Assembly: GCF_000801335.2 (NCBI RefSeq)
Contig: NZ_JSEH01000027.1
Location: 1-63,886 of the forward strand
Origin: Desulfovibrio sp. TomC
GTDB taxonomy: Bacteria; Desulfobacterota; Desulfovibrionia; Desulfovibrionales; Desulfovibrionaceae
Direction of reading: 5' to 3'
DNA: 63,886 nucleotides
Position numbers and translations under genes: made by a program. The notes beneath the pieces are model-generated. The model saw only the letters and a program-made list of their open reading frames with translations. It searched no databases and was not told the DNA's origin. Below, in pieces: positions 18,971 through 23,774 of the stretch (position 1 is its first letter; every line of letters begins with the position of its first letter).

Positions 18971-19176
18971 CGCCCGCCGGGTCGGGCCGCCGTTCCCGGC
19001 TCCGCACCGGCGTTGGGACAACAGGGGCGGCGTTGCGGGGGGACGGCGGCGTGGCCGGCTGTCGGTACGACCGGCCAAAGAAGCGATGCCTTCCGGGGAG
19101 TGCGTGTCCTTAGCGGCCCTGTCCGCGGGTGTCAGACACAGAAGCGTGGCGGCGTTGCCGCGGCCGAAAGGGGCTG
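18971..19176. other. Intergenic region before the first sRNA module
   Basis: About 200 bp without a supported gene, leading into the palindrome pair at 19177-19233. The whole gap from 18971 to 19888 contains module A described in the following entries. Confidence 0.5.
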
Positions 19177-19233
19177 GTACAAATTTTTGCCCCGTGCGGG
19201 CGGTCATTCCCGAATGGGTTCAGGATTCTGTAC
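19177..19233 (+). promoter_or_regulatory. Tandem 16-bp palindromes A1 and A2 (putative enhancer sites)
   Basis: A1 GTACAAATTTTTGCCC (19177-19192) and A2 GTTCAGGATTCTGTAC (19218-19233) share the dyad pattern GTWYARRATNYTGYAC, and their starts are 41 bp apart. They lie 115 bp (start to start) upstream of the -24/-12 promoter at 19333, the usual position of activator sites for sigma-54. The cognate protein is unknown. Confidence 0.65.
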
Positions 19234-19332
19234 GGTGAGGGTGGGACTTTTTGGTGTGCAAGGTCTGGATTGGTTGTCGTAATAGGCCGAATTGACGTGA
19301 TAACTTGACGAAAAATGGTGCTCTGCGTCTTT

Positions 19333-19348
19333 TGGCACGGCTCCTGCT
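19333..19348 (+). promoter_or_regulatory. Sigma-54 promoter of sRNA copy A
   Basis: TGGCACGGCTCCTGCT: GG and GC are separated by exactly 10 bp, and it matches the TGGCACGnnnnTTGCW consensus except for one base. The predicted start is near 19359. Confidence 0.8.
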
Positions 19349-19358
19349 ATAAGAAAAA

Positions 19359-19426
19359 TACCTTCCTCTGAATGAACATTTTGCAAAAAGGCTTTTCGGG
19401 TGGCTCCCGGAAGGCCTTTTTCATTT
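19359..19426 (+). ncRNA. Putative sigma-54-dependent small RNA, copy A
   Basis: A predicted transcript of about 67 nt. The 5' single-stranded part reads ACCTTCCTCTGAATGAACAT and continues to TTTTGC. It is identical to copy B and contains TTCCTCT, complementary to an AGAGGAA ribosome-binding sequence. The 3' part is an intrinsic terminator, AAAAAGGCTTTTCGGG / CCCGGAAGGCCTTTTT (19385-19400 and 19406-19421), pairing with G-U wobbles. Differences from copy B fall mostly in the stem and keep pairing. An ATG inside (19372) has no Shine-Dalgarno and its frame is not shared with copy B. Confidence 0.7.
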
Positions 19427-19549
19427 GGACAAGGCCGAACGGCCGGCCGATGGCCTCTTTCCTGCCCCTCTCCGGCATTGTTGCCTCTCCGCTGTCCCGG
19501 CAATGCCTGCCCGGCCCCTCCCGCCCCCAACCGCCGCAGTTTTGGTCGC

Positions 19550-19565
19550 GTATAAAATCCTGCAC
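19550..19565 (+). promoter_or_regulatory. 16-bp palindrome A3
   Basis: GTATAAAATCCTGCAC, the same dyad family as A1, A2, B1 and B2, with only two mismatches to B3 at 22909. It lies about 125 bp after the sRNA A terminator, and 115 bp (start to start) before a weak -24/-12-like sequence at 19665. Confidence 0.5.
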
Positions 19566-19664
19566 TCGGACCAGTGTGGGCCAGGGGGAGGCAAGTCCGA
19601 CAAAAAAAGCACAGGCACGGTGAGCGCCAATCCGACGAGGGTGCGGCGGGGATTGCGTGAGGGC

Positions 19665-19680
19665 TGGCTTGGGCGGGGCA
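19665..19680 (+). promoter_or_regulatory. Weak sigma-54-like promoter upstream of the TPR membrane gene
   Basis: TGGCTTGGGCGGGGCA has GG and GC correctly spaced, but the -12 region lacks TT. Its distance from palindrome A3 is the same 115 bp as A2 to the sRNA promoter, which is the main reason to list it. Confidence 0.3.
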
Positions 19681-19888
19681 TTGTCGTTGCCACGGTGGTC
19701 CGGGATTGGCATAAACGGGCACAGGGCTCGGCGAAGACAGACAATTGGCAGCGCGGCATGGCATTGGAACTCACCAGCATTGACGGACACGAGCGGACGC
19801 AATTATCTGTCAGGGCGAAGCCTTTTGGGGAAGCACACCGTTTTTGTCAGGCCGGATTGTTCAAGGAGAGCACTGTGCGAGCTGTGAA

Positions 19889-20545
19889 ATGAAGGGAACG
19901 CGAAATGTCGTCATCTTTGAACGGCTCTGGCTTGGTTCGATAGTCATTGGCGTTGTGCTGGCCGTTTTTGGACCGCAACAATCGAATCCGTTTTTGAGTG
20001 ATTCGATGATGCTTTTGTTGCAGGTTGTGTCAGTCGCTTCAAATCTTTGGCTTGTCCTGTTGGTTTCCAGGAAAAACAGCAACGCTTCACGCTATCTCCT
20101 CTTGATCTCGTTTGTAGGCGGAGCCGCTTTTGACCTGCCGGATGTACTTGGGATGACGCGTCCACTTGGCCAATCGTTATTGACGATTGTTCAATATGGA
20201 ATGCAATTGTCTGGTCTGTATTATTTATTTTTAACAAAGAATTCAAGTGCATATAGGCAGGGATCGTTCGTGTCGAGCGACAAGGGCATTGAGAGTGAAA
20301 TCAATGAAAGCGGAAGATCTGTCCTGCTTGATTGCGCTCTGAATTTGCTTGAATCAAATAGGTACGATGAAGCGATAGTGCTGTTTGATGACGTCATACG
20401 GTCAAACCCTGGAAACGTGGATGCCTACTGCGGTCGTGGCCTCTGCTTCATGCGACTTGGCCAAACGGAGAAGGGGCTCTCCGATATCCAGCGAGCAGCG
20501 ATCAATGGCAGTGTCCCGGCGCAAGAGTTGTTGCGGCAGCAATAG
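19889..20545 (+). CDS. Membrane protein with C-terminal TPR repeats
   Basis: 218 residues from ATG 19889; the frame is open a little further upstream. Four hydrophobic segments lie in the first 115 residues (around VIFERLWLGSIVIGVVLAVF, MMLLLQVVSVASNLWLVLLV, YLLLISFVGGAAFDL and SLLTIVQYGMQLSGLYYLFL). A soluble tail has two TPR-like units (ALNLLESNRYDEAIVLFDDV, GRGLCFMRLGQTEKGLSDI). Codon use is markedly more A/T-rich than most of the window. Function is unknown; TPRs suggest protein binding at the inner membrane. It sits downstream of palindrome A3. Confidence 0.75.
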   Translation: MKGTRNVVIFERLWLGSIVIGVVLAVFGPQQSNPFLSDSMMLLLQVVSVASNLWLVLLVSRKNSNASRYLLLISFVGGAAFDLPDVLGMTRPLGQSLLTIVQYGMQLSGLYYLFLTKNSSAYRQGSFVSSDKGIESEINESGRSVLLDCALNLLESNRYDEAIVLFDDVIRSNPGNVDAYCGRGLCFMRLGQTEKGLSDIQRAAINGSVPAQELLRQQ

Positions 20546-20971
20546 CGCCCGTACGTCCCGGAGGTCCGGTCTCGCCGCAGGCCGCTCGGTGCGGCGACCT
20601 GGGCAGGGGAGGGGCGACGACGGCGGCGTGGTTTTTGTTGTGTCTTGCGGGGGCGATTGACGCGCCGCTCGGCTGATTGCGCCTGTGCCCCGGCGCAGGG
20701 TCATGAGGCTGTCCGTCAGGGGGCAGGGAAGAGGTGGCTGTTTTCAGGGCCTGGGGCTGTTAGGGGGGGGTGAGCGAAGCGTCTCAAGCAGGGAGCAGGA
20801 CGAAAGGCACAGGCCAAAGAAGGGAACGAGTCGGGGCAAGATGAACAAGAGTTATCGTGACAACAATATTTTTCGTTGCTAGCCCCGTTCCCGGGGGCCA
20901 ATGCCGTGTCCTTTTGCCCAGGCCTTGCAACACGGGGCGCTATTCCTCATTTTTTTTCAGGAAGAAAGAGG
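20546..20971. other. Intergenic region
   Basis: 426 bp with no supported gene; I see only short GC-driven frames. AGGAAGAAAGAGG at its right end is the ribosome binding site of the small gene at 20972. Confidence 0.5.
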
Positions 20972-21175
20972 ATGAAAAGCAAATTTGCAGCAACGATGCT
21001 CACGCTTTTCCTGACCATGAATCTCGGCTCCGGTTGGACGCAACGTCTTGACCACCAGATCTGGAAAATTGAATCGTCCCTGCGCGATGCAGTGGAGACC
21101 AGAGTCTCTACGGAGCAGTTGCTGGACGCGGAACGGAAATGCCGGTCCCGCGCCCAGGTGACCAAGGAAGGGTGA
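20972..21175 (+). CDS. Small secreted protein
   Basis: 67 residues from ATG 20972, preceded by AGGAAGAAAGAGG. The N-terminus MKSKFAATMLTLFLTMNLGS is a plausible signal peptide. The mature part is short, helical and charged (LDHQIWKIESSLRDAVETRV) with a single Cys near the end. I do not recognise a family. It lies 136 nt upstream of the histidine kinase in the same orientation and might be its periplasmic partner, which is a guess. Confidence 0.55.
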   Translation: MKSKFAATMLTLFLTMNLGSGWTQRLDHQIWKIESSLRDAVETRVSTEQLLDAERKCRSRAQVTKEG

Positions 21176-21311
21176 GGGCGCAACCCGCCGGCCGCGAGAG
21201 GTGCAAGGCCCCGATTGCCGGCCGAAGGCGCATGGTTTTTGGCGCCAAAGTCCTGGGCGGCGCACAAACTTCCACGCGCCGCTGGGCGGCTCACCATGAG
21301 GAAGGAGCAAC

Positions 21312-22418
21312 ATGGCTGAGGCCAGAGGCGAAAAGCAGCCGCCCACCGGGCTTTCTCCCCAGCCAAGCGGCTGCCAGGCTATAGCCGGACCCGTGTTGAC
21401 CCTGGCTTTGGCCGGGGCTTTGCTCTGGCTCCGAAACATCGACGTCCAGGTGCCGAACCCCATCCTTCTGTTCGCCAATTTCATTGTCCTTTCCGCCTTT
21501 CTCGGCGGCATCGCGTACGGGCTGGCCAGCGTGGCCATCGCCTTGGCCTTTGCTCTCATTTACTGGAGCATCCCCGGCCAGTTGTTTCAGTACGTGCCGA
21601 TGAACCAGGAGCGGCTTTGCGTGCTGGCCTTGACCATGCCTCCCCTCGCCCTGCTGGTAGGCTGGCTGCGGGGGGCGTATGAGCGGAAACAAGAGGAGTT
21701 GCGCGAGCAAAACGTCCAGCTGTGCACCGAGTTGCGGCGCAGAGCGATCCTGGAGGAGAGGCAGCGGGACGTGGATCATATCATGCGCCACGATTTGCGC
21801 ACGCCGCTGACCGGGATCATTGCCATCCCCGAGCTGCTTCTGGACGACGACAACCTGACGACGGCCCAACGCGAACTGGTGGCCATGATTGCCGTGACCG
21901 GGCGCAAGATGCTCAGCCAGATAAATGATTCCCTGGAATTGCGGACAATCGAAGAAGGCTCCTATACGCTTCAGGTCATGCCCTGTGATCCTGTCCAGAT
22001 CCTGCTCGATAATTTTAAAATTTTAGGGTTGGGCAGTCATGCCGATCAGTCAAAACTGCAGCTTCGTGTGCATAATCGTGTCCTCTTACAAACTGATTGC
22101 CGCCTTCTGGATGTGATTGTCGCCAATCTGCTCCGCAATGCGCTGGAAGCCAGCGACACGGACGCGCCTGTGGTTGTTGATTTGGCTGAAGAGCGGGGGG
22201 AGTGCGTCATTGTCATTGCCAACAACCGGCCTGTCCCTGCGGAAATCCGGTCTCGTTTTTTCGAGAAGTACGTCACCGCCGGCAAGGCCGGGGGGACGGG
22301 ACTTGGAACGTACAGTGCCTTGCTGATGACCACGGCCCTTGGCGGGACGCTCGCCATGGAAACCTCGGAAGAAACGGGAACGAAAGTGACGATTCGTCTT
22401 CCTCTGGGGAAGGGCTGA
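21312..22418 (+). CDS. Orphan sensor histidine kinase, membrane bound
   Basis: 368 residues. Four hydrophobic segments lie in the first 120 residues, with short loops and no large periplasmic domain. A coiled linker (EERQRDVDHIM) leads to the HisKA H-box MRHDLRTPLTGI with the phospho-accepting His near residue 158. The ATPase domain shows the N-box IVANLLRNALEAS, an F-box-like RFFEKYVTAGKAGGTGLGTY, and a C-terminal TKVTIRLPLG. It should autophosphorylate in response to a membrane-proximal signal. No response regulator is adjacent. AGGAGCAAC precedes the ATG. Sigma-54 sRNA module B lies directly downstream. Confidence 0.9.
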   Translation: MAEARGEKQPPTGLSPQPSGCQAIAGPVLTLALAGALLWLRNIDVQVPNPILLFANFIVLSAFLGGIAYGLASVAIALAFALIYWSIPGQLFQYVPMNQERLCVLALTMPPLALLVGWLRGAYERKQEELREQNVQLCTELRRRAILEERQRDVDHIMRHDLRTPLTGIIAIPELLLDDDNLTTAQRELVAMIAVTGRKMLSQINDSLELRTIEEGSYTLQVMPCDPVQILLDNFKILGLGSHADQSKLQLRVHNRVLLQTDCRLLDVIVANLLRNALEASDTDAPVVVDLAEERGECVIVIANNRPVPAEIRSRFFEKYVTAGKAGGTGLGTYSALLMTTALGGTLAMETSEETGTKVTIRLPLGKG

Positions 22419-22556
22419 CCGGCGCTTGGACGATGGCGACGCCTCGATAGCGGTGTGGCGGCTGGCCCAGGAGGCTGCCGGACCAGCGGTCGCAGACGTG
22501 GGCAGTTCACTTGTGGGCGGCAGCGTTCAGGCGCGTCGAAGGTAGTGGCCGGGGCG
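22419..22556. other. Intergenic region before the second sRNA module
   Basis: No gene seen. The gap from 22419 to 23363 (945 bp) between the histidine kinase and the mucR-like gene is occupied by module B (22557-22924). After 22925 I see nothing recognisable. Confidence 0.5.
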
Positions 22557-22613
22557 GTACAAATTTTTGCCCTCCCTGGCGGCTCCTTTTCGGCTGGGTA
22601 CAGAATTTTGTAC
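22557..22613 (+). promoter_or_regulatory. Tandem 16-bp palindromes B1 and B2 (putative enhancer sites)
   Basis: B1 GTACAAATTTTTGCCC (22557-22572) is identical to A1. B2 GTACAGAATTTTGTAC (22598-22613) is the best dyad of the set. Start-to-start spacing is 41 bp, exactly as in module A, and B2 lies 113 bp before the -24/-12 promoter at 22711. Confidence 0.7.
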
Positions 22614-22710
22614 CCCCAGGAGAAGTCTCGAAGCGCCAACGGACTTATTCGGCATAGCTATTTATTTGTATTATATGGATAAATTATTGATTTTCACGGT
22701 TTTTCAGATG

Positions 22711-22726
22711 TGGCACGACTCCTGCT
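22711..22726 (+). promoter_or_regulatory. Sigma-54 promoter of sRNA copy B
   Basis: TGGCACGACTCCTGCT, with GG and GC separated by 10 bp; it differs from the copy A promoter by a single base in the spacer. The predicted start is near 22737. Confidence 0.8.
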
Positions 22727-22736
22727 CTAAGAGAAA

Positions 22737-22802
22737 TACCTTCCTCTGAATGAACATTTTGCAAAAGGCCTTTTGGGTGGCTCCCAAAAGGCCTTTTCAT
22801 TT
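22737..22802 (+). ncRNA. Putative sigma-54-dependent small RNA, copy B
   Basis: A predicted transcript of about 65 nt. It shares with copy A the 5' region ACCTTCCTCTGAATGAACAT followed by TTTTGC. The terminator stem AAAAGGCCTTTTGGG / CCCAAAAGGCCTTTT (22763-22777 and 22783-22797) is perfectly paired, around the same TGGCT loop as copy A. Copy A changes both sides of this stem yet stays paired, which supports a selected RNA structure. No ribosome binding site or shared reading frame is present. Confidence 0.72.
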
Positions 22803-22908: not shown

Positions 22909-22924
22909 GTATAAAATACTGCAC
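22909..22924 (+). promoter_or_regulatory. 16-bp palindrome B3
   Basis: GTATAAAATACTGCAC, the third dyad of module B, about 110 bp after the sRNA B terminator. Unlike A3, no -24/-12-like sequence is found about 115 bp further on. Confidence 0.5.
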
Positions 22925-23363: not shown

Positions 23364-23774
23364 TTATTCGTTACCCGTGGGCTTTTGGCGACGCTCCCAC
23401 AATTTCATATCCTTCATTTTGGCCCGGCGCTCTCTGGCCAATGACTTACAAGCCAGGGCCTGGGTTTTCTTGAAGCCGTACTTGGCCCGGTATTCCTCAG
23501 GGGTCAGTCCGTGGGACGCAAGATGCTTCCTGGTGATGACCTTGAAGGACTTGCCGCACTCCAGACAGGTGATCGAGGCTTCCTTGATGGCCTTTTTGGG
23601 GTCCATGGCAGGCGAGGCCGGCTCTTCTTTTCCAGGCAGAATCTGGCCGGAGGTCAGGGCGGCAATGCCGTTGGCCACGGATTTGACCATACTTAAAATC
23701 TCTTCCTCGGTCATGGGACGCGATCCGGCCTGAGCCTTCACGATCTCCAGGGCACTTTGCAAATACTCTTCCAT
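23364..23774 (-). CDS. MucR/Ros family transcriptional regulator
   Basis: 136 residues. The C-terminal half carries the family zinc-finger region CLECGKSFKVITRKHLASHG followed by LTPEEYRAKYGFKKTQALA, which is diagnostic of MucR/Ros. Here the motif runs C-x2-C then a spaced His pair. The N-terminal part (EEYLQSALEIVKAQAG) is helical and in this family mediates oligomerisation. MucR proteins bind AT-rich DNA at T-A steps and often repress surface polysaccharide, motility or their own gene. The exopolysaccharide-type kinase gene at 25228 is a possible target. A promoter and an AT-rich inverted repeat lie directly upstream. Confidence 0.92.
   Translation of the reverse strand: MEEYLQSALEIVKAQAGSRPMTEEEILSMVKSVANGIAALTSGQILPGKEEPASPAMDPKKAIKEASITCLECGKSFKVITRKHLASHGLTPEEYRAKYGFKKTQALACKSLARERRAKMKDMKLWERRQKPTGNE

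Follow-up and report, generated by a model that had tools for sequence, protein, structure and literature searches.

A previously unnamed multi-copy family of small RNA genes with sigma-54 promoters in Desulfovibrio relatives and its predicted pairing with porin ribosome-binding sites

What are the two closely similar segments at positions 19333-19426 (copy A) and 22711-22802 (copy B) of contig NZ_JSEH01000027.1 of Desulfovibrio sp. TomC, and on what might their products act? The window is the whole stretch of DNA that was analyzed, 63,886 nucleotides, and corresponds to contig C27 of the 5.07-Mb TomC genome (labelled G000), the genus of which is probably Solidesulfovibrio. A note made earlier from the sequence of this window, hereafter the original prediction, had described the segments as twin small RNAs (sRNAs) sharing a sigma-54 promoter, a 5' region, and a terminator, and sequence inspection located promoter, common 5' block, and terminator in both copies at the positions claimed. 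Judged by sequence, the segments are members of a previously unnamed, order-wide, multi-copy family of sRNA genes with sigma-54 promoters, and the family, its promoter, activator-type sites, structure, and complementarity to porins can be read directly in the genomes compared. The word twin was, hence, too narrow; both copies are real, but the TomC genome carries three further copies and a remnant. With a probability of roughly 0.8, these paralogous genes would encode sRNAs of about 65 nt that repress porins of the DESULF_POR1 family by seed pairing.

The sigma-54 type -24/-12 promoter, TGGCACG-N5-TGCT in both copies, lies on the forward strand at 19333-19348 in copy A (TGGCACGGCTCCTGCT, conserved in relatives) and at 22711-22726 in copy B (TGGCACGACTCCTGCT, read from the sequence). 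The longest stretch identical between the copies, which begins at 19356 and 22734, was 33 nt, slightly longer than the 28 nt or so originally claimed. The predicted sRNAs span 19360-19426, with the start inferred from the distance to the -12 element, and 22738-22802, again with a predicted start, both on the forward strand. Folding yielded one terminator hairpin per copy, with z-scores of -3.77 for copy A and -4.49 for copy B, and the native stability was matched by 0/200 shuffled sequences for copy A and 0/200 for copy B. The forward-strand hairpin of copy A (19385-19421, from folding and the family alignment) has 16 pairs, and that of copy B (22763-22797, from folding) has 15 perfect pairs, as the prediction of a perfect stem in copy B had it; the loop is UGGCU in both. 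Among 17 distinct sequences of the genus, 255 of 255 stem cells were paired, and one stem pair was UA in nine sequences and CG in eight, which demonstrates that the compensatory changes proposed for both arms of the terminator are real. Across 34 sequences from several genera, two-sided changes were found in 12 of 13 stem pairs, 90.1% of the cells were paired, and the covariation score was 0.490, compared with 0.206 after shuffling and at most 0.200 with the partners slid, all these pairing statistics being favoured because the consensus structures were derived from the same sequences on which they were scored. A protein-coding reading was rejected because the short ATG frame in the RNA (ATGAACATT...) is not preserved within the genus, other species having, for example, GAACAACCC. 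On the minus strand of 22760-22797 and 19385-19420, the terminator hairpins also match the RNA model, and it may therefore be that they stop transcription from both sides.

Conservation of promoter and stem in relatives, a test that had been named beforehand, was found. A plain DNA match recovered the family in 12 of the 14 genomes of the genus, and an RNA-only model (R1) did so in all 14, within a total of 42 of 199 genomes of the bacterial family. Several of the R1 matches inspected outside the genus (e.g., L063-L065, L068-L070, and L074) stand behind a -24/-12 promoter that is absent from the model, and those at L066, L067, and L071-L073 have no such promoter and look like chance terminators. 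A promoter-plus-RNA model (R2), built from 34 sequences of at least nine genera, matched 167 of 288 genomes of the bacterial family in 34 of 44 genera, with one to five matches per genome; its E-values are rough and, if exact, would imply about 0.3 false genomes among the 288 at E 0.001. Over the order, which is one of sulfate-reducing bacteria, R2 matched 201 of 348 genomes, which includes 34 of 60 outside the bacterial family with one match each, and the sole genome inspected by eye among these 34 (G288) fits the sRNA family. When named genomes were scanned by pattern, 35 stretches turned up, and 31 of these were member-like, in Solidesulfovibrio, Humidesulfovibrio, Halodesulfovibrio, Salidesulfovibrio, Pseudodesulfovibrio, and others. 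Carriers within Solidesulfovibrio include S. aerotolerans and S. alcoholivorans. The loci L126, L136, L140, and L146, which are chance-like, and L148, which is cut off, were excluded from the family alignment and the site set.

The TomC genome itself has five copies, namely A, B, C7:87236, C28:49870, and C14:34606, with those on C28 and C14 standing apart as a second type, the loop of which resembles GAUGGCGAC. The C7 copy (G000 C7:87236-87331; L014:5237-5332) has a damaged -24/-12 element, TGCC...CGCC, and a remnant on C17 (around 79160-79420; L043:5160-5420) has retained its activator-type sites with the RNA gone, the two together documenting gain and loss of siblings. Tandem units are frequent in other genera, lying 339-398 bp apart in 12 of the genomes compared and 415-658 bp apart in others.

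Two palindromes of the type bound by activators (GGTacAAaAtTTTgtACC; also written GGTACAAAATTTTGTACC) lie upstream of most copies, their starts being about 115 and 157 bp away from the -24 element. In the window, they were located on the forward strand by site matrix or pattern at 19176-19193 (GGTACAAATTTTTGCCCC) and 19217-19234 (GGTTCAGGATTCTGTACG) upstream of copy A and at 22556-22573 and 22597-22614 (GGTACAGAATTTTGTACC) upstream of copy B; the region described in the original prediction starts at 19177, inside the first of these, and the prediction was silent on the palindromes. An iterated weight matrix gave the consensus GGTwcAAaAtTTTgwACC, and two sites above 6 bits were present in 66 of 83 copies (at least three spurious-looking promoter-pattern hits, L084, L097, and L220, being kept within the 83) compared with 3 of 709 windows drawn at random from the same loci. 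The spacing from site to site was mostly 41-42 or about 52 bp. A third activator-type site follows each window copy on the forward strand, at 19550-19565 (373 bp after the first site of copy A) and 22909-22924 (352 bp after that of copy B), and may be the first site left over from a tandem copy that has since been lost. In the TomC genome, GTAYARAATYYTGYAC with at most one mismatch gave 13 strand-hits, each of which falls on A, B, C7, C28, or the remnant on C17, and the backward control gave two; the C14 copy has weaker sites, below this pattern. Because the hits fall at sRNA copies and the remnant, the regulon of the putative activator may consist of the sRNA genes alone.

Activator-type genes, recognized by a motif rule, were rare in the vicinity of the copies, being found near 1 of 43 loci (8.7 kb off), 0 of 35, and 1 of 20 (3.3 kb off) in three sets of loci, and near 0 of 4 loci in the genus nearest D. 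vulgaris. The sRNA-carrying genome G254 has seven activator-type genes. When six of these seven were compared with eight of nine from G206 and 28 of 42 from the TomC genome, the clearest shared orthologues were G000 C15:126548 (63%), C12:171647 (68%), and C5:212708 (59%), which we take to resemble ZraR-, DVU3220-, and flagellar-type regulators; none is tied to the palindrome, and none is claimed.

The original prediction had also proposed that a single-stranded CUUCCUCU pairs with purine-rich ribosome-binding sites, and the comparison of seeds with translation starts supports this and points to porins as the particular class of targets. A search for AGAGGAAGG-N4-10-ATG in four genomes of the genus gave 10 hits, with six in the TomC genome compared with one in its backward control, and two of the 10 were porin starts, one in the TomC genome and one in G011, both of the family NF033939 DESULF_POR1. 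A set of porins was then compiled from 13 genomes of 10 genera, and seeds were compared in the 12 of these genomes with an sRNA. At least nine contiguous Watson-Crick bases to a seed of the same genome were found at 37 of 59 porin starts but at only 3 of 328 other predicted starts. Two of these three belong to frames that overlap the sRNA itself on the opposite strand, and the third belongs to the histidine kinase gene that separates copies A and B. With the genus that gave rise to the porin idea set aside, the corresponding counts were 18 of 30 and 1 of 105. Dropped from the porin set were three of ten TomC matches (a late-starting one on C13 and two fragments on C15) and a second piece in G104.

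Furthermore, with seeds assigned to their true genera among the ten, the best complements summed to 112, compared with 88.6 (standard deviation 6.0) under permutation (p=0.00035), and the duplex energies summed to 228.6, compared with 190.7 (standard deviation 8.5), with 0 of 20000 permutations reaching the true energy sum; several spurious seed candidates had been removed by hand before the permutation, and a third seed of G077 had been added by hand. The seed of copy A (ACCUUCCUCU, 19360-19369, forward strand) is complementary to porin ribosome-binding sites. As an example from G139, the sRNA ACCUUCUUUCUUUUGC (CUUCUUUCUUUUGC region) and the porin GCAAAAGAAAGAAGG share a complement of 15 nt; further examples are AUCCUUUCUUUUGC with GCAAAAGAAAGGA in G040, UUUCCUCCUUUUGCA with UGCAAAAGGAG in G104, and AUCCUUCCUC with GAGGAAGGAU in Solidesulfovibrio. 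By these comparisons, changes in the seed tend to go along with changes in the porin site from genus to genus. Within the TomC genome, the C14 copy (CCUCCGAAA) is predicted to bind the UUUCGGAGGAGGG porin with -28.9 kcal/mol, compared with -22.1 kcal/mol for the window copies, and a porin of S. aerotolerans similar to the UUUCGGAGGAGGG porin has an 11-nt match. As a separate observation, the TomC porin gene at C15:109287-110327 appears as two matches with a TAG within one frame and is probably a broken gene.

Several points weigh against porin repression under a dedicated activator. The own genus's seed was the single best by longest complement in 2 of 10 genera, with a tie in one more, and by energy in 3 of 10, and seeds of related genera often fit equally well or better, as with the G040 porin and the g38 seeds (16 nt); because own-genus seeds are rarely best, the joint change of seed and porin site is only a tendency, helped by shared ancestry. 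The permutation p-values are likewise optimistic because the genera share ancestry. Overall, 22 of 59 porins fall short of 9 nt, and in G249 none of five reaches it. Porin and control starts were set by rule rather than by annotation, and the ranking covered selected starts rather than whole genomes, such that other mRNAs may be hit too. The matrix that detected the activator-type sites was trained on the same copies that it counted, and no activator was pinned to the palindromes among the activator-type genes compared. The porins of G052, a genome with no model match, bear on how complete the model is; all 10 lie outside the 59, and two (L332 and L339) fit the own-genus seed, taken from the sister species G249, over 12 and 11 nt. 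Because of this fit, the model probably misses members in G052, although the match might alternatively be the trace of a lost sRNA.

From these points arises the best-surviving rival, which accepts the same sigma-54 sRNA family and holds that its main job is the control of other mRNAs or titrating a protein, with the match to porins as a side effect. Pyrimidine seeds would then simply meet the strong, purine-rich ribosome-binding sites that highly expressed genes carry, and the seeds do resemble an anti-Shine-Dalgarno stretch. The porins without a 9-nt match and the seeds that do not fit their own genus best are what it would lead one to see, as is the small porin share of the AGAGGAAGG-N4-10-ATG hits (2 of 10), another of which starts an open frame of 501 residues. 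The histidine kinase gene between the copies (21312-22418), with its 9-nt seed match at the start (GAGGAAGGA), also fits, and it may be a real target regulated by the neighbouring sRNAs. However, 9 nt are reached by so few of the other starts of the same genomes (3 of 328), and the porin matches extend beyond the Shine-Dalgarno core (e.g., GCAAAAG), on which grounds we consider this explanation unlikely.

Far less probable is that a gene downstream has the segment as its 5' leader or attenuator, or that the transcript is noise stopping at a terminator, instead of a free sRNA. A NUDIX gene does lie directly downstream in two g22 genomes (L068:1584-2096 and L069:1627-2079), but the downstream genes vary between copies and genera, both the activator sites and the 5' segment have been retained ahead of differing genes, and the terminator is strong. 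We give equally little credence to a dispersed mobile or repeat element that is not under selection as a gene, which the several copies per genome and the damaged C7 copy and C17 remnant might suggest, but which is at odds with a maximum of five copies in the listed genomes, the stem covariation, the fixed site spacing, and the absence of notable repeats flanking A or B (transposase genes were not searched for).

Under the preferred reading, that is, repression of DESULF_POR1 porins by sibling sRNAs, a signal, possibly envelope stress or a nutrient change, would switch on an enhancer-binding protein that occupies both palindromes, upon which sigma-54 RNA polymerase would transcribe the sRNA genes. 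The resulting trans-acting RNA of about 65 nt would consist of a single-stranded 5' pyrimidine seed followed directly by the intrinsic terminator, the hairpin of which would both end and protect the RNA. The seed would cover the Shine-Dalgarno region of porin mRNAs and block the entry of ribosomes. Because its first bases are complementary to porin ribosome-binding sites, the sRNA probably lowers porin output; the sign of the effect, repression rather than activation, is inferred from the fact that such pairing usually represses. Firing of the activator would, hence, be followed by a fall in porin synthesis, to which the siblings would add dose and perhaps a choice among porins.

A more tentative extension, which we put at somewhat below even odds, is an order-wide circuit for outer-membrane permeability, in which one sigma-54 activator would have as its whole regulon the sibling sRNAs, which address porins through co-changing seeds and may be specialized for particular porins. 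Such a circuit would be a counterpart of the enterobacterial sigma-E porin brake built from other parts. If the preferred reading is true, porin control by sRNA runs through sigma-54 in this lineage, where enterobacteria use sigma-E, and the uptake of substances from the surroundings by these organisms has a testable switch. The duplicated DNA site offers a handle for fishing out the regulator, and the differences in seeds and targets among ten genera allow comparison. To our knowledge, targets are known for few sRNAs of sulfate-reducing bacteria.

In its working, though not by any claimed kinship, the proposed system would resemble several known ones. Qrr1-5 of Vibrio are sibling sRNAs with sigma-54 promoters that are activated by LuxO and act by base pairing; the sibling sRNAs, sigma-54 promoters, and a putative enhancer-type activation recur here with a predicted base pairing, whereas the sequence, host phylum, and targets differ and no activator gene adjoins the copies examined. 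MicA and RybB are enterobacterial sigma-E-dependent sRNAs that bring down the synthesis of outer-membrane proteins through pairing at or close to translation starts; the complementarity at the starts of outer-membrane proteins is shared, with repression presumed in our case, whereas the promoters are of the sigma-E type there and of the sigma-54 type here and the sequences are unrelated. The cia-dependent and LhrC multi-copy sRNAs are Gram-positive siblings whose pyrimidine stretches pair with ribosome-binding sites; compared by description, they are alike in being siblings with such stretches and differ in bacteria, promoters, and targets. For the sRNAs scanned against Rfam, no family came up at threshold, the Qrr model included, and sub-threshold matches of flavi_FSE, ctRNA, and similar hairpins over the copies were taken as chance. 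In a literature search, with subscription papers mostly outside it, neither this RNA nor any sRNA that acts on porins of Desulfovibrio was found described.

The closest reported RNAs by host are four sigma-54 noncoding RNAs (ncRNAs) of D. vulgaris, including Dv_sRNA2, for which the parts of the reports available to us name no target (PMC4641369, PMC3333781). The ncRNA table places two of them downstream of the genes for their activators and one more in the vicinity of its activator gene (PMC4641369). As far as these sources go, they share with the present family the sigma-54 control and the bacterial family, and differ in that three are near activators, whereas the copies here have no adjoining activator gene. 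The genus nearest D. vulgaris has three copies at loci that look different from that of the ncRNA upstream of DVU3282, in a comparison that did not include the D. vulgaris genome, and this ncRNA may be a member of the family. The main text of a paper on the major porin of D. vulgaris does not contain the word sRNA (PMC5686591). For Oleidesulfovibrio alaskensis G20, the portion of the report at hand gives two 'Pseudomonas P10' and seven 'sX4' hits (PMC11124144); the sRNA loci that we scanned had no match to either, and G20 was not recognized among the genomes.

The genes near the two copies encode a TPR protein (weak matches), the histidine kinase mentioned above, and, at 23364-23774 on the minus strand, a ROS/MUCR regulator. 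The promoter and seed were also observed at L116:6708-6804, on a contig labelled Betaproteobacteria, which is perhaps misassigned. Finally, a box like GCGTTTCCGCCC lies about 45 nt past the terminator and before the third site, and is conserved in most copies of the genus (e.g., L017 and L028).

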